From Euzebya tangerina (GTDB lineage: Bacteria > Actinomycetota > Nitriliruptoria > Euzebyales > Euzebyaceae): a stretch of 64,000 bases of DNA. The position numbers and the translations under genes were made by a program. Where the stretch lies: assembly GCF_003074135.1 (NCBI RefSeq), contig NZ_PPDK01000003.1, positions 248,001 through 312,000 on the forward strand. The letters are read 5' to 3'. This document shows, piece after piece, positions 16,470 through 44,475 of this stretch. Under the pieces are notes generated by a model. It did no database searches, was not told the DNA's origin, and saw nothing but the letters and a program-made list of their open reading frames with translations. Within the stretch, counting starts at the first letter, position 1. Every line of letters begins with the position of its first letter.

Positions 16470-17267
16470 ATGCCGATCACGTGGTCAGAGAGCGCGCTTG
16501 ACCTGTCGTCACGGGTACGAGTCCGCTTCGTCGGTCCACTCGAGACGGGCGCTCCTGTCGTGGTCCTGCACGACGCCGGAGCCGAGTCCGTGGACGCACC
16601 CGCGTGGGACATGGTGGCCGAGCACCGCCCGATATGCCAGGTCATGCTGCCCGGCGTCGAGGGCAGCACCGACGTGCCAGATGGCGCGGACATCACCTGG
16701 ATGACCGGCCTGCTGGCCGACGTGTTGGTGACCCTGGGGGCACCACCGACGACCGTGGTCGGCACCAGTCTGGGCGGCTGGTTCGCGCTGGAGACGGCCC
16801 TCGCCCATCCGGCACTGGTCCAGCGTCTGGTCCTGCTCGACACCGCCGGCCTGCACTCACCGCCGGGCTATCTCTTCGGCCTGTTCGCCGACGGTCAGGG
16901 TCAGGGTGGCCACGACGAGCTGCTCGGCCCGACCATGCGCAACCACCGGGTGCCCGACCACCCCGCAGCGATCGCCCCGTACCTCGCCGACCTGACCGCT
17001 GCCGCGCTCCACAGCTGGAGCCCACACCTCCCCGATCCCTCCCTTCTCACCCGGGCCCGACAGCTCACCACCCCGACGACGATCCTGTGGGGTGCCGACG
17101 ATGCGCTGATCCCCGTGGCCCACGGCCGGGCGCTGGCAGAGGTGCTCCCGAACGCGACGTTGGAGGTGGTCACCGACGCCGGGCACCTGCTGGCGGTGGA
17201 TGCTCCTGCACTGGTGGCCGCACGAATCCTGGGGCGACCCGTACCATCGGGCAGGCATGCCACTTGA
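16470..17267 (+). CDS. Alpha/beta hydrolase
   Basis: A 265-residue alpha/beta-hydrolase-fold protein. The nucleophile elbow is GTSLGGW (Ser about 98 from this start), the acid is in ILWGADDALIP and the His in VTDAGHLLAVDAP. The frame is open back to an ATG at 16392, but that start overlaps the start codon of the divergent RidA gene, leaving no promoter; ATG 16470 begins just before the first strand. Substrate unknown. The end overlaps the RNase D start by 11 bp. Confidence 0.85.
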   Translation: MPITWSESALDLSSRVRVRFVGPLETGAPVVVLHDAGAESVDAPAWDMVAEHRPICQVMLPGVEGSTDVPDGADITWMTGLLADVLVTLGAPPTTVVGTSLGGWFALETALAHPALVQRLVLLDTAGLHSPPGYLFGLFADGQGQGGHDELLGPTMRNHRVPDHPAAIAPYLADLTAAALHSWSPHLPDPSLLTRARQLTTPTTILWGADDALIPVAHGRALAEVLPNATLEVVTDAGHLLAVDAPALVAARILGRPVPSGRHAT

Positions 17268-18408
17268 TTCCTACCGCCTGATCGACGACCCGTCCCAGCT
17301 TCCGGGTGCGCTCGAATGGCTGGCCGACCTCGATCCGATCGGCGTGGACGTCGAGCGCGCGGACTGGAACCGGTACTACCGATCCGCCGCACTGGTCCAG
17401 ATCGGCGGGGACGGCCGCGTGGCACTGCTGGACCCACTCGAGCTTGACGACTGGACGCCGATCGAGCGCTTCCTGGGCGAGCGAGCGATCCTGCTCCACG
17501 CGCTCGAGAACGATGTCGCCCCGCTCCAGGCCCTCGGCGTGGACCCGCCAGTGGTCCATGACACCGCCATTGCCGCCGCCGTCCTCGGACTCCCGATGGG
17601 GCTCGAGACGATGCTGGCGGACCTGCTGGACATCGAGATGACGTCGGACAAGTCCAAGATGCAGCGGGCCGACTGGGAAGCCCGGCCGCTCACGGAGGAG
17701 ATGCTCGTCTACGCCGCAGGCGACGTGGCCGACCTGCCCCGACTGTGGGCGCTGGTGGAAGAGCAGTTGCACCAGACAGGTCGGTACGAGTGGTATCAGG
17801 AGGAGTTGGCGGCGACCCGCGACCAACCGACGATCGAGGAGCGACGGGACTGGGAGCGCACCAAGGGCGTCGGCCGACTGGACCCGAAGGCTCGTGCACG
17901 AGCGAAGGCGCTGTGGACCACCCGGGAGGACCTGGCGCGCACCACCGACACGGCGCCGGGCCGAATCGTCAATGACAAGACGCTGGTCGACCTCGCGTTG
18001 AAGCCGCCCAACGCGCTTCGTGAACTGGGCCGTCGCGGGGTTCGCCGCCAGTCCGTTCGGGAGTTCGGTGAGGATCTCATCCAGGCGCTCGAGATCGGGG
18101 CCAACGCCGAGCCCGAGCCCGTCAGGCGCAACGGGCGACGTGCATCCGACGCCGACCGGGAACTGGCCGATGAGCTCCGTGCCCTCCGAGCCAGCATCGC
18201 CGAGGATCACGGCCTGGACGCCGGGATGCTCTGCCCGAGCCGCATCCTGCTGCGAGCCGTCATGAGCGATCCACAGTCGCCGGAGGAGCTCAAGTCCGCC
18301 CTCGGACTGCGCAACTGGCAGTGGGAGCTGTTGGCCGACGACTTCGTTGCCACCGTCTTCGTCGATGAGGGGACTGACGCCGCGGCGCCGGCGAAGACGC
18401 GCACCTGA
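17257..18408 (+). CDS. rnd: Ribonuclease D (3'-5' exoribonuclease with HRDC domain)
   Basis: Exonuclease that trims 3' ends of tRNA and other small RNAs. The DEDDy motifs are visible: VDVE (about 28-31), LENDVAPL (about 86-93) and YAAGD (about 152-156). The HRDC domain covers about residues 200-280 (RDWERTKGVGRLDPKARARAK) and a second HRDC-like region follows. The length of 383 residues is normal. I chose ATG 17257 because the longer frame from 17200 translates hydrolase coding sequence. Overlap with the upstream hydrolase suggests co-transcription. Confidence 0.9.
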   Translation: MPLDSYRLIDDPSQLPGALEWLADLDPIGVDVERADWNRYYRSAALVQIGGDGRVALLDPLELDDWTPIERFLGERAILLHALENDVAPLQALGVDPPVVHDTAIAAAVLGLPMGLETMLADLLDIEMTSDKSKMQRADWEARPLTEEMLVYAAGDVADLPRLWALVEEQLHQTGRYEWYQEELAATRDQPTIEERRDWERTKGVGRLDPKARARAKALWTTREDLARTTDTAPGRIVNDKTLVDLALKPPNALRELGRRGVRRQSVREFGEDLIQALEIGANAEPEPVRRNGRRASDADRELADELRALRASIAEDHGLDAGMLCPSRILLRAVMSDPQSPEELKSALGLRNWQWELLADDFVATVFVDEGTDAAAPAKTRT

Positions 18409-18414
18409 TCGGCT

Positions 18415-19104
18415 ATGGTCCCGCTCGTGAACATCACCCTCACCGACCAGGCCGGAGCCGAGTGGCGGCTGGCAGACCATCTGGACAGCGCAGCGCTCCT
18501 GATCACCTTCCGCGGCGACTGGTGACCCTACTGCAACGGCCAGCTGGTCAGCTTGGCATCGCTGCACGAGGAGTTCACCGCCGCCGGAGTGCGGCTGTTC
18601 GCCATCGTGGTGGACAGTCCGGAGCAGAACGCGGCCATGGTCGACAAGCTCGACCTGCCCTTCCCCGTCCTGTCGGACCCTGATCGCTCCAAGGCCATCA
18701 CGCCCCTCGACGTACGGAACGAGAAGGACCCACGCGGCTTGGCCCTGCCGGCCCTCATCCTGCTCGACGCAACGGGTGAGGAGGTGTGGCGCTTCGTCAG
18801 CCGCGACTACGCCGACCGGATGCCCGAGACCGAGGTGCTGGAGGTGATCCGCAGCCACGGCTGGGACGCCACCACACAGGACCCGCCGCCGGTTGGGCCA
18901 GCGGCACCCGGTGAGCGTGCGATGCCGCTGGAGAAGCTGCCGACCTATCTCAAGGGTGCTCGGTTCGCAGCGCTGGCCATGGGGCTGCGGCACGGCCACT
19001 TCGACGAGTCCATCAAGGACGACTCGAAGGCGTTCGTCGCCGAGATGGACACCTACATCGAGCAGACCACCGCCCTGCTGAAGCGGAAGGCCGCTGCTGA
19101 CTGA
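18415..19104 (+). CDS. Peroxiredoxin-like selenoprotein with in-frame UGA (Sec) in a UxxC motif
   Basis: Thioredoxin-fold redox protein of the AhpC/TSA-like type, 229 residues counting one selenocysteine. From ATG 18415 (or GTG 18427) the protein reads to TFRGDW, then TGA at 18523-18525, then PYCNGQL. Homologs have RGDWCPYC here, so the TGA replaces exactly the first, peroxidatic Cys of the CxxC. The frame continues without defect (LFAIVVDSPEQN, LPFPVLSDP, ALPALILLDATGEEVWRF) to TGA 19102-19104. A stem-loop with GGUC in its apical loop lies 13 nt after the TGA (loop at 20 nt), as expected for a bacterial SECIS. A gene finder would call only a truncated piece from 18553. A nonsense mutation is the alternative. 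selA/B/C/D are not in this window. Confidence 0.75.
18539..18557 (+). promoter_or_regulatory. Candidate bacterial SECIS element
   Basis: Stem GCCA-GCT (18539-18545) pairs with AGC-(bulged T)-TGGC (18550-18557), leaving apical loop GGTC at 18546-18549, 20 nt after the UGA. Bacterial SECIS elements carry G at the start of the apical loop 16-37 nt downstream of the UGA, and E. coli fdhF has the same GGUC. The structure is drawn by eye. Confidence 0.6.
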
Positions 19105-19150
19105 GTGTGGGCGCGGTGTCCGCTCGGTCGCAGGTGGGGAGGGTCTGTCC

Positions 19151-19402
19151 ATGGCCACAGATCACGGACCCAGCATCAAGGACGACGAGCAGTACGAGAG
19201 CCTCCGAGACGACGGCATGAGCAAGTCCAAGGCAGCGGCGATCGCCAACACCGATGACGCCGCGTCCAAGGGAGGCCAGCAACCCCCCTACGAGGAGTGG
19301 ACCAAGGAGGAGTTGTATGAACGGGCTCAGGAACTGGACGTCGACGGGCGCTCGGACATGACCAAGGACGAGCTGATCGAGGCGCTTCGTTCCGACCAGT
19401 AG
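19151..19402 (+). CDS. Small Rho-termination-factor N-terminal-domain-like protein
   Basis: An 83-residue hydrophilic protein. The N-terminal half (SIKDDEQYESLRDDGMSKSKAAAIANT) is a recurrent actinobacterial motif of unknown function. The C-terminal half (WTKEELYERAQELDVDGRSDMTKDELIEALR) is a Rho_N/SAP-like helix-extension-helix that in other proteins binds nucleic acid. It is 46 bp downstream of the selenoprotein gene and co-directional. Confidence 0.8.
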   Translation: MATDHGPSIKDDEQYESLRDDGMSKSKAAAIANTDDAASKGGQQPPYEEWTKEELYERAQELDVDGRSDMTKDELIEALRSDQ

Positions 19403-31596: not shown

Positions 31597-31685
31597 CGCC
31601 ATCCACCACCGTGACCGTCGAAGCCGTGCCTGATCACCAGCACACACGGCTCACCGCTCGCACCGTCCTGCCAGGAGCATCCACC

Positions 31686-34600
31686 ATGACCACCCGTCCA
31701 CCAGCCGGCGCGCCCTCCACGACGCCTCCACCACTGCCCAGCCGTGGCGGGGGCCGAACGCGTCGACTGCTGTCGTCGGTACTCGTGGGCGCGCTGATCG
31801 CCAGCACGCTGAGCCTCGTCATCGGGACCGGACCGGCCCAGGCCCAGGTCAGTTCCGGGTTCGGGATCCAGTCCCTGGTCCTCGAGGCCGGCGATGAGCC
31901 GACCGACATCCGTCAGCTCGCCCTCAGCCCCGACGGGACGCGGGCCGTCTTCACGGCGGACCTCGACGTACCCGGGCTGCGGGAGCTGTGGTCGATTCCC
32001 CTCAACCAGGGCACGCCAACGCCGACACGCCTCAGCCCGGCGCCTGACACGCCCGGAGGAGATGTCACCACCGCCAGGCTGACCCCGGACGGCACCCGAG
32101 TGCTGTTCACCGGCGACCTCCTGACCGACGGTGCCGACGAGCTGTACACGGTCCCGGTCGACGGCTCGGCACCCGCCGTCCGGCTGAACGTGGGCCCGGC
32201 TCAGGGTCAGCCTGTCTCGAGGGCCTTGGCGATCACCAGCGACAGCGCACGAGTGGTCTTCCGCGCGGCGACGGCCGGGCCTCAGCAGTTCGAGGTGTTC
32301 TCGGCCCCCGTGGATGGCGGCGAGCCGATACGGCTGAGCGACGACGTCCCGACGGGCGGGGGGTTCTTCAACCTCAGTCTGACCCCAGACGGGACCCGAG
32401 TGGTCTACCGGGGCGAGGGCGTTACTGATGGCCGGTCCGATCTCTACAGCGCACCAGTCGATGCCACCGGGCAGCAACTCCGGCTGGTAGCTGCGCCGAG
32501 CTCCACACGCGAGGTCCTGCTCGGGGGTCTGGTTGTCTCCTCAGACAGCAGCCGCGTTGTCGTCCGTGCCGATCTGCGCACCGACGGGGTGGCCGAGCTG
32601 TTCAGCGTCCGGCTCGACGGGACCACCGAGCCAGTTCGGCTGAGCCCCGACCTGCCAACCGGTGCCCAAGTTGGCTTCTTCGTGGACGTGACGTCGGACA
32701 GCACCCGGGTGGTCTACTCCGGCCTGCGGAGTCTCAACACCGTCGAAGAGGTCTTCAGCGTCGCCATCGACGGCGGTCCGGTCACCCGACTGAGTAGCGA
32801 CCCGGTTCCAGGAGGCTCGGTCGGGCTCGCGCGGCTTGCACCAGACGGGCAGTCCGTGGTCTTCACCGGCGATCTCCTCACTGACGGGGTCGACGAGATC
32901 TTCTCGGTTCCTGTCGACCGACCCGGCGGGCAGGTCCGATTGAACGACCCGCTGCCACCGGGGCAGCGCCCGTCCTTCTTCGAGGTATCTCCTGACGGGC
33001 AACGCGTGGTCTACGAGGGTGAGCTGACGACGCCGGGTGTGAAGGACCTGTACTCGGCCGAGATCGGGGTCGAGGGTACGCAGGTCCGGCTGAGCGATGG
33101 GACCGAGAGGCGGGACGTGGAGCTCTCCACCATCACATCGGATGGCCGGTCAGTGGTCTATCGCGAGGCCGTGGTCGTCGACGAGCTCGACCAGGACACC
33201 ACAGGTGCCCAGTTGTCCAGCGTCCCGATCGATGGCGCGGCGCCGCCGACGCGGCTCTCTGACGATCCCGTCGAGGACGATGTGATCGGCGGCTTCGCCA
33301 TCTCCTCCGAGCAGACCTTCGTGCTGTACCGCGGCGCACTCCGCGGCACCGGCGGCGATGAGCTCTATGCCTCGGCACTGGGCCTGCCCGGACCAATTGG
33401 CGATCTGACCGTGGACGCGGTCAGCGCGACGACCGCGACGGTGTCATGGACGCCGCCGACCACCGGTCAGCCCGACAGCTACCAGGTCACCATCGACCCA
33501 CCCGACATCCCCACCCAGACCGTAGACGGCGCGGCAACGGCCGCGACCCTGACCGGGCTGCAACCCGAGACGGGCTACACCGCGACGGTGGTGGCAGTCA
33601 ACGACGCTGGCAACTCCCCCGGCACCACCGTCGGCTTCACCACCGCCGCGGCCTCCGACCCCGGCGACCCGGGTGACCCGGGCGATCCAGGTGATCCGGG
33701 CGAGCCGGGCGACCCCGGCGACCCAGGCGAGCCGGGTGACCCGGGCGAGCCGGGCGATCCGGGCGCTGACACGGCGACCCAGACCGAGATCGTGCGGCTG
33801 GCCGGACCCGACCGGTTCACCACCGCCTCAGCGATCGCCCTGAACCAGTTCACCCCTGACGAAGTCGACACCGTCCTACTGGCCACCGGTGGCGACTTCC
33901 CCGACGCCCTCGCCGGCGTCCCCCTGGCCACAGCCCTGGACGCCCCCATTCTCCTCACCGCCACCGACACCCTCACCGACACCACCGCCAACGCCCTCGC
34001 AGCGTTGGACCCCGAGACGGTCATCGCCCTCGGCGGCACCGCCGCCATCCAAGACCCAACACTCGAGGCAGCCGGTCTCGCCGCCGACGGGGCCACCACC
34101 CAGCGGCTCGCTGGACCAACCCGCTTCGAGACCGCCACCGCAATCGCCGACGCCCTCCTCGACACCGGCGGCGACCCCACCGAAGTCTTCCTGGCACTCG
34201 GCACCAACTTCCCCGACGCCATCGCCGCGGGACCCCTCACCGCAGGCGCACCCATCCTGCTCACCGCCCCCGACACCCTCACCGACACCACCACCACAGC
34301 GATCACCCGCGACACCAGCACAGACACAGGCGTCGACACCACCACCGACACACCCCCGCCCAACCGCATCACCGCCGCCGGCGGCACCGCCGTCATCCCC
34401 GACACCGTGCTGGCCGCCGCCAGCCAAGCCGCCGACGGCGCCACCACCCAACGGCTCGCCGGACCCAACCGATTCTCTACCGCAACAGCGATCGCCGAAA
34501 CACTCCCCAACCCCGACACCGTCTACCTCGCCGTCGGCACCAACTTCCCCGACGCCCTCGCCGCCGGACCCGCCGCCGCAGCCGACAACGCCCCCATCCT

Positions 34601-34748
34601 CCTGGCCGTCGGCGGCGCCAACCAACTCCCCCAAGAGACCGTCCAGTACCTCCAGAGCCTCGACACCCTGAACCGGATCGTCCTCATCGGCGGCACCACC
34701 GCCATCCCCGAGACCATCGCCGACGAGATCACCCGCCTCGTCGAGTAG
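31686..34748 (+). CDS. Secreted beta-propeller/FN3/CWB2 surface protein, copy A
   Basis: A 1020-residue exported cell-surface protein. Layout: signal peptide with long n-region (cleavage near AQAQ, residue 55); a TolB/WD40-like propeller (about 58-590) built of repeats containing variations of TPDGTRVVF..D and SVPVDG; one fibronectin type III domain (about 575-655, DSYQVTIDPPD to TGYTATVVAVND); a Gly-Asp-Pro/Gly-Glu-Pro linker (about 657-695); three CWB2 repeats (about 700-1020, each with RLAGPxRFxTAxAIA and LAxGxxFPDAxAAGPL). CWB2 repeats bind anionic cell-wall polymers non-covalently, so the protein is probably displayed on the wall. An upstream in-frame ATG (31611) is less likely because it precedes a normal signal peptide. 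Confidence 0.9.
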   Translation: MTTRPPAGAPSTTPPPLPSRGGGRTRRLLSSVLVGALIASTLSLVIGTGPAQAQVSSGFGIQSLVLEAGDEPTDIRQLALSPDGTRAVFTADLDVPGLRELWSIPLNQGTPTPTRLSPAPDTPGGDVTTARLTPDGTRVLFTGDLLTDGADELYTVPVDGSAPAVRLNVGPAQGQPVSRALAITSDSARVVFRAATAGPQQFEVFSAPVDGGEPIRLSDDVPTGGGFFNLSLTPDGTRVVYRGEGVTDGRSDLYSAPVDATGQQLRLVAAPSSTREVLLGGLVVSSDSSRVVVRADLRTDGVAELFSVRLDGTTEPVRLSPDLPTGAQVGFFVDVTSDSTRVVYSGLRSLNTVEEVFSVAIDGGPVTRLSSDPVPGGSVGLARLAPDGQSVVFTGDLLTDGVDEIFSVPVDRPGGQVRLNDPLPPGQRPSFFEVSPDGQRVVYEGELTTPGVKDLYSAEIGVEGTQVRLSDGTERRDVELSTITSDGRSVVYREAVVVDELDQDTTGAQLSSVPIDGAAPPTRLSDDPVEDDVIGGFAISSEQTFVLYRGALRGTGGDELYASALGLPGPIGDLTVDAVSATTATVSWTPPTTGQPDSYQVTIDPPDIPTQTVDGAATAATLTGLQPETGYTATVVAVNDAGNSPGTTVGFTTAAASDPGDPGDPGDPGDPGEPGDPGDPGEPGDPGEPGDPGADTATQTEIVRLAGPDRFTTASAIALNQFTPDEVDTVLLATGGDFPDALAGVPLATALDAPILLTATDTLTDTTANALAALDPETVIALGGTAAIQDPTLEAAGLAADGATTQRLAGPTRFETATAIADALLDTGGDPTEVFLALGTNFPDAIAAGPLTAGAPILLTAPDTLTDTTTTAITRDTSTDTGVDTTTDTPPPNRITAAGGTAVIPDTVLAAASQAADGATTQRLAGPNRFSTATAIAETLPNPDTVYLAVGTNFPDALAAGPAAAADNAPILLAVGGANQLPQETVQYLQSLDTLNRIVLIGGTTAIPETIADEITRLVE

Positions 34749-34762
34749 TGGCGCAAGAGATG

Positions 34763-34799
34763 GGTGCTGGGCGTGTCTGTGAGGGGCGCGCCCGGCACC
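34763..34799 (+). terminator. GC-rich hairpin after copy A
   Basis: GGTGCTGGGCG (34763-34773) pairs with CGCCCGGCACC (34789-34799) through 11 pairs including one G-T, 15 bp past the stop of copy A. No T run. It lies between copies A and B and may limit read-through. Confidence 0.5.
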
Positions 34800-34877
34800 A
34801 CCTCTGATCCCGGCCTGCAGTCACACCACCTGTCCAACTCACACTCCAACCCGTCACACGTCCACCAGGAGACCCGC

Positions 34878-37862
34878 ATGGCTTCCCGCGCCGCCGCACG
34901 CCCATCAACAACAACCACTCCAACTCGCGCACTGCCCGTCCCGCGGCTGCTGGCCGCCATGCTGGCGGTTGCAGTGCTGGCCAGCACGCTGGCTGCAACC
35001 ACAGCGCTGCCTGCCCACGCGCAGGGCAACCCCGGATTCGGGCTGGAAACGGTCGTCGTCGAGAGCCCCGATCGGCCAACGAGCGTCCGACAGGTCCGGA
35101 TCACCCCGGATGGCGCCACCGCGGTCTTCACGGCTGATCTCGAGGTCGAGGGTCGCCCTGACCTCTGGTCGATTCCGTTGGATGGCGGCGCGAGGACCCC
35201 GACCCGGCTGAGCCCGGAGCCGGTCGCCGGTGGATTCGTCGGGGGGTTCACGATCAGCCCGAACTCCACCCACGTCGTCTTCAACGGCGACGTGCTGAGC
35301 GACGGCAGACGGGACCTGTTCGTCGTCCCGGTCGACGGATCCAAGCCGGCCACCCGCCTCAACATCGGCCCTGCCGAGGGCTTCGGCGTCAGCCAGTCCG
35401 TTGCGTTCACGCCCGACAGCCAGCGGGTGATCTTCCGGTCGGCCACGAGTGACGATCCGATTCTGGAGCTGTTCTCGGCTCCCGCGACCGGCGGGCAGCC
35501 GGTCCGCTTGAATGACGATGTCCCCGAGGGTGGAGGGGTCTCGACCTTCGTGGTGACACCCGACGGCAGCCGGGTGGTCTACCGTGCGGTCGGCACGACC
35601 ACCGGCGTGTTCGAGGCGTACAGCGCACCAGTTGACGCCGCCGGCGGACAGGTCCGTCTCAATGCGCCCCCTCCCCCTGACGGCGATGTCGAGGGCCGGT
35701 TGGTCGTCACACCGGACAGCACACACGTCGTCTTCAGCGGCGATCTGCGAGTTTCGGGCGTGTCGGAGCTGTTCAGGGCCCCGGTCGACGGCTCGGCGGA
35801 CCCGGTCGTGCTCACCCCACAGCCGGTGGTTGGCGGCGACGTCACCAGGAGCCAGTTCGACATCACCGCCGACGGCTCCCGGGTGGTGTACCTGGCCGAC
35901 CAGCGCGTCGATGAGGTACAGGAGATCTTCAGCGTGCCGCTGGAGGGTGGCCCGTCAGTCCGCCTCAGCAGTGATCCGGCAGGCGAGGGCGACATCCTCC
36001 GCTTCGAGCTGACACCTGACGGTGAGTCCGTCGTCTACCTCGGTGATCTGCTGACCGACGAGGTGCGCGAGATCTTCTCGGCACCGGTGGACGCCGGTGG
36101 CGCTCAGGTCCGCCTGAACGGTCCGCTGCCTCCGGGCGAGAGCCTGACCCGCTTCGACCTCTCGTCGGATTCCGAGCGTGTGGTCTTCCCCGGCAAGCTG
36201 ACGACCCCGGATGTGGTCGATGTGTACGCCGCGCAGGTCGGCGTCAGTGGAACTCAGGTGCAGCTCAGTGATGTGGACGTACCGGCGACCGCAGATGACG
36301 AGCTGATCACACCGGATGGCCGATTCGTGATCTACACCGAAGCGGTGCCCGACCAGCAGGGCTCCTCGACCGGTGCGTTCGCGCAGGCCGTGGTGGTTCC
36401 GATCGATGGGTCCGCGCCCGCACGACCGCTCACCGACGTCCCGGTCCAGTCGGACTCGATCCGGAGCATCCAGCCAGCCCCGGACTCATCCTTTGTGGTG
36501 TTCCTCGGGGACCTGCGGACGGCGGACGTGGAAGAGATCTACGCCTCCGGTCTGTCCCCAGCGCCGGTCACCGACCTGGCTGCCAGCGCAGTCGGCGCGA
36601 CGACGGCGGAGCTGTCCTGGACCGCCCCGACGACCGGTCAACCCGACACCTACCGGATGACGCTGGACCCGCCCGACATCGCCGACCGGACCATCGATGG
36701 CGCGCTGGAGTCCGCGACCTTGACCGGGCTGCAACCCGAGACCGAGTACACCGCGACCGTGGTGGCCACCAACGACGTGGGCAACTCCCGCGAAACCACA
36801 AATGCGTTCATCACCGCTGCAACCCCCAACCCCGGAGACCCTGCCGATCCGGGCGACCCAGGCGACCCGGGCGACCCGGGCGATCCAGGCGACCCGGGGG
36901 ATGACGACGGTGGTGAGACCGAGACCGTCCGGTTGGCCGGCGCCGACCGGTTCACCACCGCCACCACCATCGCGCTGGACCGCTTCGAGCCCGGAGACGT
37001 CGACACCGTCCTGCTCGCCACCGGCGGCGACTTCCCCGACGCCCTCGCCGGCGTGCCGCTGGCCACCGCGCTGGACGCACCGATCCTGCTCACCGCCACC
37101 GACACCCTCACCGACACGACCGCCAACGCCCTCACGGCGTTGGACCCCGACACCGTCATCGCCCTCGGCGGCACCGCCGCCATCCAACAGGCCATCCTGG
37201 ACGCCGCCGGTCTCGCTGCCGACGGGGCCACCACATCTCGTCTGGCCGGACCCTCCCGGTTCGAAACCGCCACCGCCATCGCCGACGCCCTCCTGGACGC
37301 CGGTGGTGACCCCACGAGCGTGTTCCTGGCCCTGGGCACCAACTTCCCTGACGCCATCGCCGCCGGACCCATGAACGCGGGCGCACCCATCCTGCTCACC
37401 GCCCCGGACACCCTCACCGACACGACCACCGCAGCGATCACCCGCGAGACCGGGGATGACATCCCACCGCCGCCCCAGCGCACCACGGCCGTCGGCGGCA
37501 CCGCGGTCATCCCCGACAGCCTCCTGAACGCAGCAGAACAAGCCGCCGCAGGCGCCGCCACCAACCGGCTGGCCGGACCCAACCGATTCGCCACCGCCAC
37601 AGCAGTCGCCGAAACCCTCCCCAACCCACAGACGGTCTACCTGGCCGTAGGCACCAACTTCCCCGACGCCCTCGCCGCCGGACCCGCCGCCGCAACCGAG
37701 GACGCACCCATCCTCCTGACCGTCGGCGGCGCCGACACCCTCCCCACTGAGACCGTCCAGTACCTCCAGACCCTGGACACCCTCGACCAGATCGTCCTCA
37801 TCGGCAGCACCACCGCCATCCCCGACACCATTGTTGATGAGCTAACCCGACTGCTCGGCTAG
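34878..37862 (+). CDS. Secreted beta-propeller/FN3/CWB2 surface protein, copy B
   Basis: A 994-residue paralog of copy A with the same layout: signal peptide (cleavage near AHAQ, residue 50), beta-propeller (about 52-560), FN3 (about 564-650, DTYRMTLDPPD), Gly-Asp-Pro linker (about 651-680, seven consecutive GDP-type units), three CWB2 repeats (about 685-994). Its upstream region lacks the GAACC-N16-CGTA promoter and the TGACAC array found before the other three, so it may be read from copy A or regulated separately. ATG 34878 has a GGAGA site 8 bp upstream. Confidence 0.9.
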   Translation: MASRAAARPSTTTTPTRALPVPRLLAAMLAVAVLASTLAATTALPAHAQGNPGFGLETVVVESPDRPTSVRQVRITPDGATAVFTADLEVEGRPDLWSIPLDGGARTPTRLSPEPVAGGFVGGFTISPNSTHVVFNGDVLSDGRRDLFVVPVDGSKPATRLNIGPAEGFGVSQSVAFTPDSQRVIFRSATSDDPILELFSAPATGGQPVRLNDDVPEGGGVSTFVVTPDGSRVVYRAVGTTTGVFEAYSAPVDAAGGQVRLNAPPPPDGDVEGRLVVTPDSTHVVFSGDLRVSGVSELFRAPVDGSADPVVLTPQPVVGGDVTRSQFDITADGSRVVYLADQRVDEVQEIFSVPLEGGPSVRLSSDPAGEGDILRFELTPDGESVVYLGDLLTDEVREIFSAPVDAGGAQVRLNGPLPPGESLTRFDLSSDSERVVFPGKLTTPDVVDVYAAQVGVSGTQVQLSDVDVPATADDELITPDGRFVIYTEAVPDQQGSSTGAFAQAVVVPIDGSAPARPLTDVPVQSDSIRSIQPAPDSSFVVFLGDLRTADVEEIYASGLSPAPVTDLAASAVGATTAELSWTAPTTGQPDTYRMTLDPPDIADRTIDGALESATLTGLQPETEYTATVVATNDVGNSRETTNAFITAATPNPGDPADPGDPGDPGDPGDPGDPGDDDGGETETVRLAGADRFTTATTIALDRFEPGDVDTVLLATGGDFPDALAGVPLATALDAPILLTATDTLTDTTANALTALDPDTVIALGGTAAIQQAILDAAGLAADGATTSRLAGPSRFETATAIADALLDAGGDPTSVFLALGTNFPDAIAAGPMNAGAPILLTAPDTLTDTTTAAITRETGDDIPPPPQRTTAVGGTAVIPDSLLNAAEQAAAGAATNRLAGPNRFATATAVAETLPNPQTVYLAVGTNFPDALAAGPAAATEDAPILLTVGGADTLPTETVQYLQTLDTLDQIVLIGSTTAIPDTIVDELTRLLG

Positions 37863-37871
37863 CGACCAACA

Positions 37872-37887
37872 CGCCCGCTGACGGGCG
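37872..37887 (+). terminator. Short perfect hairpin after copy B
   Basis: CGCCCG (37872-37877), loop CTGA, CGGGCG (37882-37887). Further GC-rich inverted repeats (CAGGGC with GCCCTG) follow within 30 bp. It lies 10 bp after the stop of copy B. Confidence 0.4.
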
Positions 37888-37980
37888 CGCTTGCCAGGGC
37901 ACGCCCGGCCCTGCCGTGCCTCGGGGACGTGCTGAGCGCGAGAGATCGCGCCGCCACGGCATCCACATGCGGGCTGTGCG

Positions 37981-38004
37981 AACCGACCGGCCGGCAGCTC
38001 CGTA
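37981..38004 (+). promoter_or_regulatory. ECF-like promoter, surface-protein copy C
   Basis: AACC (37981-37984, preceded by G), 16 bp, CGTA (38001-38004). The surrounding sequence differs from copies A and D while these elements and their spacing are kept, which argues for selection. Confidence 0.55.
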
Positions 38005-38024
38005 CTGCGGCATGTCCGCACACG

Positions 38025-38052
38025 TGACAGCCCGGTGACACGCCCCTGACAC
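38025..38052 (+). repeat. Three TGACAC-type direct repeats at 11-bp spacing, copy C
   Basis: TGACAG at 38025, TGACAC at 38036 and 38047. The first is 24 bp after the start of CGTA, as in copies A and D, although most flanking bases differ. Confidence 0.75.
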
Positions 38053-38125
38053 CCCGCTGCTCCACCGTCATCACTGCTCGCCCGACCATCACGCCTCGGT
38101 GAGCCCCACCCAGCCAGGAGACACC

Positions 38126-41100
38126 ATGACCCCCCGCCGCACCATGACCCGCCCGACCACACCCGTGACCTCGCCAGCCACGATCGCCCTCCCGGCGCAA
38201 CGCGACGTACCCGGCCATCTGCAGCGATGGATCGCCGCTGTGCTCCTCCTCGCAGTGCTGGCCAGCACGCTGGTTGCCGGAACTGCCGTGCCGGCAGGGG
38301 CCGCCGGCAACCCAGGCTTCGGCATCCAAGACCTGGTCCTCGAATCTGGGGACCAGCCCAACGAGCTGTCGCGGCCAGTGATCACCCCGGACGGCACGAG
38401 GGCGGTCTTCCGCGCCGACCTGGAGGTGCCTGGCCGGTTCGAGCTGTGGTCCCTCCCCCTCGACGGGAGCACGGCGACGCCGACACGGCTCAGCCCGGAC
38501 CCACTCATCCCAGGCGGTTTCATCGTCGACTTCGCGATCAGCCCTGACTCCACACGAGTGCTGTTCGTCGGCGATGTGCTGACCGACGGCACCAATGAGC
38601 TCTTCAGTATCCCCGTCGACGGCTCGGCGCCGGCCGTCCGCCTGAACGTGGGGCCAGCAGGCGGTCAGAACGTCGAGACGGACTTCGAGATCACCCCCGA
38701 CGGCGCGCGAGTCGTCTTCCGCGCAGAGACCGCCGGCCCCGACCAGTTCGAGGTGTTCTCGGCCCCCGTCGGCGGCGGCGACCCGATCAGGTTGAGCGAC
38801 GACGTCCCAGCCGGCGGCGGATTCTCCTCCGTCATCTTGACGCCCGACAGCAGTCGAGTCGTGTATGAGGGTGAGGGCAGGCGTGCAGGGTTCAATGAGC
38901 TGTACGCGGCCCCCGTGGATGCCAGTGGGCAACAGGTCCGGCTGGTCACCGCGTCCAGCGCCGACCGTGCCGTCCTGCGTGGCCGGCTGCAGGAGATCAC
39001 CCCGGACAGCACACGCGTGGTCTTCCACGCGGACCTCAACGCCGACTTGGTCAACGAGCTGTTCAGCGTGCCGATCGACGGCTCCGCCGACCCGGTTCGA
39101 CTGAACCCGGACCTGCCGTTCGGCGGCGACGTGGCCATCTTCGACGCCGCAATCACACCGGACAGCTCCCGCGTGGTCTACCTGGCCGACCAACGCGTCA
39201 ACAACGTCCAGGAGCTCTTCAGCGTCCCGGTGGAGGGAGGCCAGTCGATCCGGCTCAACAGCGATCCGGTGGGTGGCGGGGCGGTCCTCTCCCCGAAGCT
39301 CACGCCCGACGGCGCCGCGGTGGTCTATCTGGGCGATCTGGTGACGGACAACGAGCGCGAGATCTTCTCGGCGCCCGTCGACGCTCCCGGCGGTCAGGTC
39401 CGCCTGAACGACCCCCTGCCGGAGGGACTCAGCCTGTTCACCTTCCAGATGTCGCCCGACGCCGAACACGTCGTCATCCAGGGCCAGCTGACCACGCCGG
39501 GTGTGAACGACGTGTACTCCCTCCGGATCGGCGTCGAAGGCGACCAGGTACTTCTCAGCGACGGGCAGGGGCCCCAGGAGGCGAGGCTGCCCCTCTTCAC
39601 GCCTGACGGCCTGTCGGTTGTGTACAGCGAGGACGTCCTCATCGGACGGATCAAGCCGACCATCCAGAACTCCCGTCTCTTCACCGTCCCGATCGACGGC
39701 TCAGCCCCGCGGACGCCGGTGTCCGATCGGCCGGTGGAGGCTGACAGGATCGACGACCGCGTCATCTCGCCTGATGGAACCTTCGTGTTGTTCACCGGCG
39801 ACCTGCGAGGCGCCGGCGAGACGGAGATCTACGCCTCGGGTTTAAGGCCGTCTCCCGTCACCGACCTGACTGCCAGCGAGGTGGATACGACCTCAGCCCA
39901 GCTGACCTGGACGGTGCCAGCCTCCGGGCAGCCGGACAGTTACCAGATCACGGTCGACCCGCCGGATGCTGCTGCCCAGGTCATCGACGGCGCACTGACG
40001 GGTGCGTCCTTGAGCGGGCTGCGACCCGACACGGCCTACACCGCAACGGTGGTGGCCACCAACGAACTCGGCAACTCCGCCGACGCCGCCGTGGCGTTCA
40101 CCACCACGGCAGTCCCGGCTCCTGAGCCTGCCGATCCCGCGCCCGGAGATCCAGGCGATCCGGGTGATCCCGGTGATCCCGGTGACCCAGCCGAGCCGGG
40201 CGACCCAGGCGATCCAGGTGATCCGGGCGACCCTGGTGACCCGGAACAGCCGGGTGAGGACACCGGTACCGGTACCGAGATCGTCAGGCTGGCCGGCCCT
40301 GACCGGTTCACCACCGCCACCACCATCGCCCTGGACCGCTTCACCCCCGGAGACGTCGACACCGTGCTGCTGGCCACCGGCGGCGACTTCCCCGACGCCC
40401 TCGCCGGCGTCCCACTGGCCACCGCACTTGACGCCCCGATCCTGCTCACCGCAACTGACACCCTCACCGACACCACCGCAGACGCCCTGGCCCAACTGGA
40501 CCCCGACACGGTCATCGCACTGGGTGGCGCTGCCGCCATCGCCGAGCCGACCCTAGACGCTGCCGGTCTGGCCGCCGGCGGGGCGGCGACGCAACGTCTC
40601 GCCGGACCCTCCCGATTCGAGACCGCAGCAGCGATCGCGGGCGCGCTCCTCGACGCTGGGGGTGACTCGACCGAGGTGTTCCTGGCCCTGGGCACCAACT
40701 TCCCCGACGCCATCGCCGCCGGCCCCATCACCAACGGCGCACCCATCCTGTTGACCGCACCCGACACCCTCACCGACACCACCACGGCCGCCATCGCCCG
40801 CGACACCAGCAGTGACACCAGCACAGACACAGGTGCCGACACCACCACCGCCACACCCGCGCCACCCGACCAGATCACCGCCGCGGGCGGCACGGCGGTC
40901 ATCGCCGACGACGTCCTCGTCGCGGCCAGCCTGGCCGCCGACGGGGCCACCACCAACCGACTCGCCGGACTCAACCGATTCGCCACTGCGGTCGCGATCG
41001 CCGGGACCCTCCCCACCCCCGACACCGTCTACCTGGCAGTGGGAACCAACTTCCCCGACGCACTCGCCGCAGGACCCGCCGCAGCAGCCGACAACGCACC

Positions 41101-41254
41101 CATCCTCCTCGCCAACGGCGGCGCAGACCAACTCCCCCAAGAGACCGTCGAGTACCTCCAAAGCCTCGATGACCTCAACCAGATCGTCCTCATCGGCGGC
41201 ACCACCGCCATCCCCGAGCAGATCGAGACGCAACTCGATGCCGTCCTGGGCTGA
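38126..41254 (+). CDS. Secreted beta-propeller/FN3/CWB2 surface protein, copy C
   Basis: A 1042-residue paralog with long-n-region signal peptide (cleavage near AGAA, about residue 61), propeller (about 66-575), FN3 (about 578-662, DSYQITVDPPD), the longest Gly-Asp-Pro linker (about 665-710, with GDPAEP and GDPEQP variants) and three CWB2 repeats (about 715-1042). ATG 38126 follows an AGGAG site; the in-frame 38099 start is further from it. The array-type promoter lies about 75-145 bp upstream. Confidence 0.9.
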   Translation: MTPRRTMTRPTTPVTSPATIALPAQRDVPGHLQRWIAAVLLLAVLASTLVAGTAVPAGAAGNPGFGIQDLVLESGDQPNELSRPVITPDGTRAVFRADLEVPGRFELWSLPLDGSTATPTRLSPDPLIPGGFIVDFAISPDSTRVLFVGDVLTDGTNELFSIPVDGSAPAVRLNVGPAGGQNVETDFEITPDGARVVFRAETAGPDQFEVFSAPVGGGDPIRLSDDVPAGGGFSSVILTPDSSRVVYEGEGRRAGFNELYAAPVDASGQQVRLVTASSADRAVLRGRLQEITPDSTRVVFHADLNADLVNELFSVPIDGSADPVRLNPDLPFGGDVAIFDAAITPDSSRVVYLADQRVNNVQELFSVPVEGGQSIRLNSDPVGGGAVLSPKLTPDGAAVVYLGDLVTDNEREIFSAPVDAPGGQVRLNDPLPEGLSLFTFQMSPDAEHVVIQGQLTTPGVNDVYSLRIGVEGDQVLLSDGQGPQEARLPLFTPDGLSVVYSEDVLIGRIKPTIQNSRLFTVPIDGSAPRTPVSDRPVEADRIDDRVISPDGTFVLFTGDLRGAGETEIYASGLRPSPVTDLTASEVDTTSAQLTWTVPASGQPDSYQITVDPPDAAAQVIDGALTGASLSGLRPDTAYTATVVATNELGNSADAAVAFTTTAVPAPEPADPAPGDPGDPGDPGDPGDPAEPGDPGDPGDPGDPGDPEQPGEDTGTGTEIVRLAGPDRFTTATTIALDRFTPGDVDTVLLATGGDFPDALAGVPLATALDAPILLTATDTLTDTTADALAQLDPDTVIALGGAAAIAEPTLDAAGLAAGGAATQRLAGPSRFETAAAIAGALLDAGGDSTEVFLALGTNFPDAIAAGPITNGAPILLTAPDTLTDTTTAAIARDTSSDTSTDTGADTTTATPAPPDQITAAGGTAVIADDVLVAASLAADGATTNRLAGLNRFATAVAIAGTLPTPDTVYLAVGTNFPDALAAGPAAAADNAPILLANGGADQLPQETVEYLQSLDDLNQIVLIGGTTAIPEQIETQLDAVLG

Positions 41255-41281
41255 TCTAGGCGGTCATCGAACACGATCGCG

Positions 41282-41305
41282 AACCACCCGGCCCGGCGCT
41301 CCGTA
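41282..41305 (+). promoter_or_regulatory. ECF-like promoter, surface-protein copy D
   Basis: AACC at 41282-41285 (GAACC from 41281), 16 bp, CGTA at 41302-41305. The following sequence is nearly identical to that of copy A for about 80 bp. Confidence 0.55.
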
Positions 41306-41325
41306 CAGGGGAGCGTCGGCAGCGG

Positions 41326-41353
41326 TGACACCCGCGTGACACGCCGCTGACAC
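41326..41353 (+). repeat. Three TGACAC direct repeats at 11-bp spacing, copy D
   Basis: TGACAC starts at 41326, 41337 and 41348. The first is 24 bp after the start of CGTA. Same geometry as copies A and C. Confidence 0.75.
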
Positions 41354-41428
41354 CGACACCCGCCACCGTGATCGTCAGTGCCAACGCCGGTCACGACGCC
41401 GTTCCTTCACCCCCGCCCGGAGAAAGCC

Positions 41429-44400
41429 ATGGACCCCCGCCCAACCGCCGTCAGGATCGCCTCGATGCAACGTGTCACCGTCACGTTGCTCGTGTCCGCC
41501 CTCCTCGCCAGCACCCTCGTCACCATCACGGCCGATCCGGCTGCCGCAGCCGGCAACCCTGGGTACGGGATCCAATCTCTCGTGGTGGACGCAGGGGGAG
41601 ACCCTGCCGTCATCCGCGCGCTGGAACTCACGCCGGACGGCACCCACGCCATCCTTCTTGCCGACCTGGAGGGTGCCGGTCGGTTCGATCTGTGGTCGGT
41701 TCCCATGGACGGGAGCACGGCTGCGCCGACCCGCCTCAACCCTGAGCCAGTCCCCGCCGATGGGGACGTAAACGTCTTCCAGCTCAGCCCGGACTCCTCT
41801 CGAGTGGCCTTCGTCGGCGACCTGTTGGCGGAGGGCGCCTCCGATCTGTTCGTGGCACCTGTGGACGGTTCGAGCCCCGCGGTGCAACTCAACGTCGCAC
41901 CCGGTGATCGCCGCGTCCCCAGTTCGTTCACGTTCACGCCTGACAGCGCCCGTGTGGTCTTCCGGACCAGCAGCGCAGGCCGGTCGGAGCTCTTCTCCGT
42001 CCTGCTCGACGGCAGCCAGCCACTCCGGCTCAACGACGATGTCGTTGCCGGCGGAACCGTTCGACGCTTCGAGGTCACACCTGATGGGTCGCGGGTGGTC
42101 TACGACGGCGACCTCACCCGGAACAACGTCATCGAGCTGTACTCCGCCCCCGTCGATGCCAGGGGTCAGCAGGTGACCTTGAACACCGCACCCCCGTCTG
42201 GCGGCGAGGTGTTCGGGGGCGCGACGATCAGCCCGGACGGCTCGCAGGTGGTCTTCCGCGGCGATATCCGTGTGAACGACGTCTTCGAACTGTTCAGCGT
42301 TCCGACGGACGGCTCCGACGACCCGGTGCGGCTGACCACCGAGCTGACATCCGGTGGCGACGTGGAGCAGGGCAGTCCGCTCATCACACCGGATGGATCC
42401 CGGGTGATCTACCGCGCCGACCAGGTGACCGACGAGGTCGACGAGCTCTTCAGCATCCCCATCGAAGGGGGCCCATCGGTTCGTCTGAACAGTGATCCGG
42501 TCGCCGGGGGCGACGTCTCCCTCGTGCGGCTCGCACCCGATGGAGAGTCGGTTGTCTACCGAGGTGATCTTCTGACGAACGGTGTCACCGAGATCTTCTC
42601 AGCGCCCGTCAGTGCCACCGATGGCCAGGTCCGCCTGAACGACCCCTTGCCGCCAGACGTGAGCCTGTCCACCTTCTTCGTGTCCCCGGACTCTACGCAT
42701 GTGGTCTTCGATGGCGAGCTCACAACACCAGGGGTGGAGGACCTGTACTCGGCCCCGATCGGCGTGGGTGGCGGGCAGGTCCAGTTGTCCGACGCGGCGG
42801 ATCCGCAGGACGCACAATTCGCATCGATAACCCCCGATGGCAGGAGCCTGATCTACGTCGAGGACGTCAGATCCGGGCAGATCGAGGTGGTCGGTCGCTC
42901 GGCGCAGCTGCTCAGCGTCCCGATCGACGGCTCTGGTCCGCGGCGGCCCTTGAGTGACACGCCGGTTGAGTCTGACTCCGTCATCCGGGTGGACGTGTCG
43001 CCTGACTCCTCCTTCGTGGCCTTTGCTGGCGACCTTCGAACGTCGGGATCCACGGAGGTGTACGCCGCCGGTCTGGTGCCCACCGCCGTAACTGACCTGA
43101 CCACCGCTGAGGTGGATCAGACCTCGGCTGAGCTGACGTGGACGGCCCCGACAACCGGTCAGCCCGACAGCTACCAGATCACCCTGGACCCACCCGACAT
43201 CCCCACCCAGACCACCAACGGCGCGGCAACGGCCGCGACCCTGACCGGGCTGCAACCCGAGACGGGCTACACCGCGACGGTGGTGGCGGTCACGGCCGCT
43301 GGCAACTCCCAAGGCGCCACCGTGACCTTCACCACCCAAGCGGCGGTCGACCAGCCTGGGCCGGACCCGACCGACCAGCCGGACCCCGACCCGGACCAGG
43401 GTCAGGATCGCGATCCCGATCCCAGCGACACCGGTACCGGTACCGAGATCGTCAGGCTGGCTGGCCCGGACCGGTTCAGTACCGCCGCCACCATCGCCCT
43501 GGACCGCTTCGACCCGGACGACGTCGACACCGTCCTCCTGGCGACCGGAGGCGACTTCCCCGACGCCCTCGCCGGCGTCCCACTCGCCACCGCACTTGAC
43601 GCCCCCATTCTCCTCACCGCCACCGACACCCTCACCGACACCACCGCCACCGCCCTGGCCCAACTGGACCCCGACACCGTCATCGCCCTCGGCGGCACCG
43701 CCGCCATCAGCGACCAGACCCTCACCGCAGCCGGCTCTGCCGGAGACAGAGCCAGCACCCGACGACTGGCCGGCCCCACCCGGTTCGAAACCGCCACCGC
43801 CATCGCCGACGCCCTCCTCAACGCCGGCGGCGACCCACCGAGGTGTTCCTGGCCCTGGGCACCAACTTCCCCGACGCCATCGCCGCCGGACCCATCACCG
43901 CAGGCGCACCCATCCTGCTCACCGCACCCGACACCCTCACCGACACCACCACCGCCGCGATCACCCGCGACACCGGCAGCGACACCACCACCGACACCGG
44001 GCCAGACACCGGCGTCGACAGCACCACCGACACCCCGGCACCACCAACCAGCATCACCGCCGTCGGCGGCACCGCCGTCATCCCCGACGACGTTTTGGCC
44101 GCCGCATCACAGGCCGCCGGAGGCGCCACCACCCGGCGACTCGCCGGACCCAACCGGTTCGCCACCGCGGCAGCCATCGCTGCCACCCTCCCCAACCCCG
44201 ACACCGTCTACCTCGCGGTGGGCACCAACTTCCCCGACGCCCTCGCCGCCGGACCCGCCGCCGCAGCCGACGGCGCCCCCATCCTGCTCGCCGTCGGCGG
44301 CGCGGACCAACTCCCCCAGGAGACCGTCGAGTACCTCCAGACCCTCAACAGCCTCGACCAGATCGTCCTCATCGGCGGCACCGCCGCCCTCCCGGACCAC

Positions 44401-44433
44401 ATCGAAGACCAACTGGCAGCACTCCTCCCCTGA
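41429..44433 (+). pseudogene. Beta-propeller/FN3/CWB2 surface protein, copy D, with a 1-bp frameshift
   Basis: Fourth paralog. ATG 41429 starts a signal peptide (cleavage near AAAA, about residue 38), then propeller (about 42-550) and FN3 (about 554-639). The linker is Asp-Pro/Gln-rich (about 640-675) instead of Gly-Asp-Pro. CWB2 repeats follow until residue about 802, where the frame breaks at 43834-43836. Copy A has GACCCCACCGAAGTC here, copy D has GACCCACCGAGGTG: one C is missing from a C run. The correct frame resumes (VFLALGTNFPDAIAAGP) and runs to 44433 with no further defect. The shifted frame gives a Pro/Ser/Arg-rich tail to 44458. A real mutation, a phase-variable run or a base-calling error are all possible. 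Confidence 0.85.
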
Positions 44434-44439
44434 CGGGCT

Positions 44440-44475
44440 CGGGCTGGGCGCGGCGTGAGGGGCGTGCCCAGCCCG
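44440..44475 (+). terminator. Perfect 10-bp hairpin after copy D
   Basis: CGGGCTGGGC (44440-44449) pairs with GCCCAGCCCG (44466-44475) with a 16-nt loop, starting 6 bp after the stop at 44433. Likely transcription end of the surface-protein cluster; no T run. Confidence 0.6.

Follow-up and report, generated by a model that had tools for sequence, protein, structure and literature searches.

A very probable UxxC selenoprotein of peroxiredoxin fold in Euzebya tangerina

Selenoproteins described as ‘Prx-like thiol:disulfide oxidoreductases’, a kind predicted since 2005, are characterized by an AhpC-TSA domain (PF00578) and by a UxxC or UxxU active-site motif (PMC1088965; PMC1794560; PMC9312934; PMC13188914). 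Within the phylum considered here, a survey published in 2006 credited five selenoproteins to Rubrobacter xylanophilus, and part of the phylum's set may therefore already be covered; a literature search conducted under a presumed class name found no paper naming selenoproteins of the lineage to which Euzebya tangerina belongs.

The gene described below lies in a stretch of 64,000 nucleotides from that species (hereafter ‘the window’). Its interpretation as a selenoprotein gene, in which SelB and a GGUC hairpin would aid the insertion of selenocysteine (Sec) at residue 37 of a UxxC enzyme of peroxiredoxin fold, is considered very highly probable, because the UGA is conserved, the machinery for Sec is encoded in the same genome, a SECIS-like hairpin is conserved as well, and both the predicted fold and the alignment of the UxxC motif agree with such a reading.

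Reading frame, UGA codon and relatives

The initial annotation had described a frame beginning at 18415 that is broken solely by a TGA at 18523-18525, and this description was borne out: the frame runs from an ATG at 18415 to a stop codon at 19102-19104, and its single internal stop falls within the sequence RGDW*PYC. The locus is composed of the following features:

17200 to 18408, plus strand: upstream gene for an RNase D-like 3'-5' exonuclease with an HRDC domain, ending 6 nt before ATG 18415
18415 to 19104, plus strand: Prx-like gene, very probably for a selenoprotein of 229 residues including Sec37, plus the stop codon
18523 to 18525, plus strand: UGA codon, very probably read as selenocysteine (Sec37), the first residue of UxxC; shared at this site by 25 relatives, with TGC in five others
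18532 to 18534, plus strand: codon of Cys40, the putative resolving partner of Sec37; invariant in the alignment, and aligned with the peroxidatic Cys of canonical peroxiredoxins
18539 to 18557, plus strand: SECIS-like hairpin GCCA GCU [GGUC] AGC U UGGC, with its loop at 18546-18549, 20 nt after the UGA

The G+C content at the three codon positions is nearly the same before the TGA (0.694, 0.444 and 0.889) and after it (0.698, 0.443 and 0.891), and therefore one coding frame runs through the TGA, in agreement with the earlier impression that the rest of the frame is intact and does not resemble that of a decaying gene. A reading by eye identified no clear Shine-Dalgarno sequence before ATG 18415. 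The exonuclease gene and the Prx-like gene are possibly co-transcribed, and a functional link between them is not obvious. An antisense ORF (17170-19158, minus strand, 662 amino acids) spans both genes, matched no Pfam family and is probably a by-product of high G+C. Elsewhere in the window, four consecutive ORFs (31611-44458, plus strand, each of about 1030-1050 amino acids and each with PD40 beta-propeller repeats, fn3 and cell-wall-binding CWB2 domains) form a tandem family of surface proteins.

A mechanical list of ORFs, compiled without Sec rules, gives TTG 18553-19104 as the sole ORF for the gene, exactly where an automated caller had been expected to begin. Such a listing favors an explanation in which translation genuinely ends at the UGA and a shorter but functional protein is made from the TTG downstream. 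The resulting product would, however, lack the first two strands of the fold and the whole of the UxxC motif, which is invariant in the relatives, and residues 1-36 are conserved and bear a normal coding signature; this explanation is regarded as very improbable.

Relatives of the gene were searched in 396 genomes of the phylum, and many close ones were flagged with exactly one internal TGA. The TGA occupies the identical codon in 25 relatives, which come from separate genomes (24 that were read together and one, L077, that was added later), within the motif RGD(W/F)*(P/T)(Y/F)C; every relative with a TGA whose motif was read has it at this same codon. The TGA-containing relatives reach down to about 32% identity and are distributed across several families of the phylum, and TGC is found at the Sec codon in five further relatives. 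Among more distant Prx matches that had been flagged ‘1 TGA’, four were checked (L079, L080, L083 and L096), and in each the TGA is the natural terminal stop.

These observations bear directly on the possibility that a peroxiredoxin-like gene of the Cys type acquired its TGA by nonsense mutation or through a sequencing error, which would reduce the locus to a pseudogene or an artefact. Although TGA is one base removed from both TGC and TGT, and TGC is indeed the codon in five relatives, the recurrence of the same TGA in 25 relatives excludes the sequencing error at 18523 that had initially been contemplated. The frame and its coding bias are likewise intact on either side of the TGA, the machinery for Sec is present in the genome, and the full-length orthologs found in the class (in seven of 66 genomes) have TGA in all seven cases and Cys in none, leaving this explanation hardly credible. 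The gene is absent from three genomes of the same genus, all of which have SelA, SelB and SelD; its patchy distribution does not argue against Sec.

The tree of the relatives, which was rooted at its midpoint and has several weakly supported forks, consists of two clades. The clade to which the window's gene belongs is entirely Sec (nine rows from eight families, as labelled), and the second, drawn from one family, contains 15 Sec rows, among which five Cys rows are nested; this nesting suggests that Sec was replaced by Cys within the second clade. The initial statement that homologs have Cys at this site thus holds for the five TGC relatives, but all of these fall in the second clade, and TGA is the rule among the closest relatives. 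No conserved gene neighborhood linking the two clades was found across 15 loci, and no relative was found in viral contigs. A plasmid collection contained only distant relatives (about 30% identity, annotated ‘peroxiredoxin-like family protein’), and a search of a contig collection returned one relative, truncated and without the U region.

Two further observations were made on individual genomes. One ortholog (L057, in G309:C139) has a frameshift about 36 nt after the TGA, shortly past the SECIS, which reflects either an assembly error or decay. Three genomes of one family (G281, G372 and G079, family f15) each harbor the Sec form together with a second relative that has no internal stop.

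Selenocysteine machinery and the hairpin

The initial annotation had reasoned that the host must have SelA, SelB, SelC and SelD. All four components are present in the window's own genome, which is 98% complete:

C1, 1437790 to 1437881: tRNA-Sec, 65.9 bits, ARAGORN anticodon TCA
C1, 1331415 to 1332716: selA, 426 bits
C1, 1328534 to 1329580: selB, over the cut-off, followed closely, in the same frame, by its C-terminal portion
C1, 2347573 to 2348499: selD, 380 bits

As read, the SelD protein is of the Cys form (GAGCGCK), and a reading of the ORFs in the neighborhood of the tRNA-Sec found no sel genes there. A tRNA-Sec scores over the cut-off in 23 of the 27 other genomes whose relative has TGA, and the remaining four are fragmented assemblies (220-710 contigs). 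As a means to discriminate Sec from Cys forms, the presence of tRNA-Sec proved uninformative, as most genomes with Cys forms also have it.

The same genome encodes a formate dehydrogenase alpha subunit (C2:218837-220723) whose frame contains a TGA at the site classical for Sec, NRT*HAPSVVGL. Here, too, a hairpin presents GGUC in its loop, at a distance of 18 nt from the UGA. The match to the profile begins at its position 48, and positions 1-58 are matched separately ~2.6 kb downstream. With a Sec-type formate dehydrogenase in the genome, the Sec system is therefore probably used beyond the Prx-like gene. The GGUC loop common to the two genes offers a handle on SECIS recognition by actinobacterial SelB.

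Published rules for bacterial SECIS elements specify a loop of 3-9 nt with a G in its first two positions, a stem of 4-16 bp, a distance of 16-37 nt from the UGA and a minimum free energy at or below -7.5 (PMC13188914). The hairpin at 18539-18557 lies within all of these limits, with its GGUC loop, a stem of 7 bp with one bulge, a distance of 20 nt and an energy of -8.7 kcal/mol for 28 nt. Thus the SECIS-like hairpin with a GGTC loop that was noted at the outset is present and accords with the rules, but its folding energy is no better than that of shuffled sequences (z about -0.95, with 38 of 200 shuffles as good), and energy alone is not significant as evidence for a SECIS.

Conservation beyond that demanded by protein coding does support the predicted hairpin, in two respects. 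Synonymous conservation in codons +4 to +11, counted from the UGA, is 0.776 versus 0.559 expected (p = 8.5e-4), the baseline being other conserved codons with equal degeneracy; the permutation covers seven codons and assumes that they are independent of one another. In addition, the two outer bases of the loop (columns 24 and 27, which are the wobble sites of neighboring Leu and Val codons) covary, with G-C in 17 cases, A-U in three and C-G in one, to an extent that exceeds all 500 shuffles; the A-U type is that of L052/L053 and of L055, which sit on separate branches, so that the two bases have changed together at least twice in the tree. Within the window's clade the lower stem displays no double changes, and in the second clade its pairing register is different; in two relatives (L045 and L048) the stretch after the UGA folds differently. 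An RNAalifold consensus of 24 sequences gave another, weak structure with no double changes, and an Rfam scan of the window gave no match.

Fold, active site and proposed mechanism

When the TGA is read as a residue, the protein matches the Pfam families AhpC-TSA (PF00578; E = 2.7e-23, 82.7 bits against a cut-off of 26) and Redoxin (2e-15). In a structure model built with 28 rows (pLDDT 96.3), residues 1-151 adopt a peroxiredoxin fold that is best matched by 3hjp (Z 21.8, rmsd 2.0 over 150 residues), and many further Prx structures match at Z about 20. The model continues into a C-terminal extension of two helices (172-193 and 198-228), which was hardly tested by the fold search. The features of the clade are this two-helix extension, of about 60 residues, and an invariant RGD(W/F)-U-xxC block; in alignment A1, the invariant positions are Arg33, Gly34, Asp35, position 37 and Cys40.

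Sec37 aligns with the first Cys of the ResA CxxC motif and with the Thr of the peroxiredoxin TxxC motif, and Cys40 aligns with the peroxidatic Cys. The original placement of the UGA at the catalytic Cys of a peroxiredoxin-like gene was therefore right as to the UxxC motif, in which Sec takes the position of the N-terminal Cys of a thioredoxin/ResA-type CxxC, but not as to the peroxidatic Cys, with which Cys40 aligns. The canonical signature PxxxTxxC/U is replaced by R33xxxU37xxC40, and because the Pro and Thr are absent, the protein is not a canonical peroxiredoxin.

In UxxC families, Sec is normally found in the attacking position. In the mechanism that is proposed here, the GGUC hairpin downstream would recruit SelB, GTP and Sec-tRNA-Sec to a ribosome that has reached UGA 18523, and selenocysteine would be inserted at residue 37. 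The full-length enzyme would carry the active site Sec37-Pro-Tyr-Cys40 on its peroxiredoxin fold, and its putative activity is most likely that of a thioredoxin-like thiol:disulfide oxidoreductase or of a thiol-dependent peroxidase. Sec37 would attack the substrate, whether peroxide or disulfide, Cys40 would resolve the intermediate as a selenenylsulfide (a cycle that appears likely), and a cellular reductant, such as thioredoxin, would regenerate the enzyme. We infer the actual insertion of Sec, as well as the catalytic chemistry, the substrate and the reductant.

A real selenoprotein could also operate as a peroxidase of the canonical type, in which Cys40 attacks and Sec37 acts as a resolver within the motif. 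The alignment of Cys40 with the peroxidatic Cys of peroxiredoxins and a fold that is nearest to theirs (Z 20-22) point in that direction, and are countered by the substitution of Arg33 and Sec37 for the Pro and Thr of PxxxTxxC, by a sequence match to ResA as well, whose first Cys aligns with Sec37, and by the usual attacking role of Sec in UxxC families. This division of labor is possible but unlikely, and attack by Sec37 is the preferred reading.

Comparison with known families

Ordinary gene callers truncate genes of this type, and the active site is lost in the process; the 26 sequences that appear to carry a recoded UGA are spread over two clades and several families of the phylum. As both forms, Sec and Cys, occur together in a single family, the costs and advantages of Sec are open to direct testing. 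There is a modest chance that these proteins merit the status of a separate subfamily. The fuller proposal of a distinct, uncatalogued actinobacterial UxxC subfamily, acting as a Sec-dependent peroxidase or disulfide reductase whose helical C-terminal extension would provide its own binding of a partner or reductant, is regarded as doubtful.

No NCBIfam model matched above its cut-off. The best match, to the SelL-related redox protein (NF040769), covers the same region of the fold (residues 6-92) and reaches 39.9 bits against a cut-off of 120, so that the protein is not a member. Peroxiredoxin selenoproteins of the TxxU type are alike in fold, but have Sec at the peroxidatic position, whereas here Sec is at the position of the Thr and Cys is at the peroxidatic one. 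The peroxiredoxin-like group cd02970 / PF13911 (AhpC-TSA_2) is matched weakly (23.6 bits, below the Pfam cut-off of 27), and the selenoprotein that it includes has the motif UxxS rather than UxxC. The thiol-disulfide oxidoreductase ResA has a CxxC that aligns with the UxxC described here; in contrast to ResA, no signal or membrane anchor segment was seen by eye, the structure is nearer to Prx, and a C-terminal extension is present.

The closest correspondence is with the Prx-like thiol:disulfide oxidoreductase selenoproteins (PMC1088965; PMC1794560; PMC9312934; PMC13188914), with whose representative, WP_010940744.1, the comparison was made by domain and motif description rather than by sequence. 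The gene shares with them the PF00578 domain, UxxC in place of the TxxC/TxxU of canonical peroxiredoxins, and a predicted internal bacterial SECIS just past the UGA. It is thus very likely best classified among the UxxC selenoproteins of the ‘Prx-like thiol:disulfide oxidoreductase’ type, a known kind of which it would be an ordinary member.
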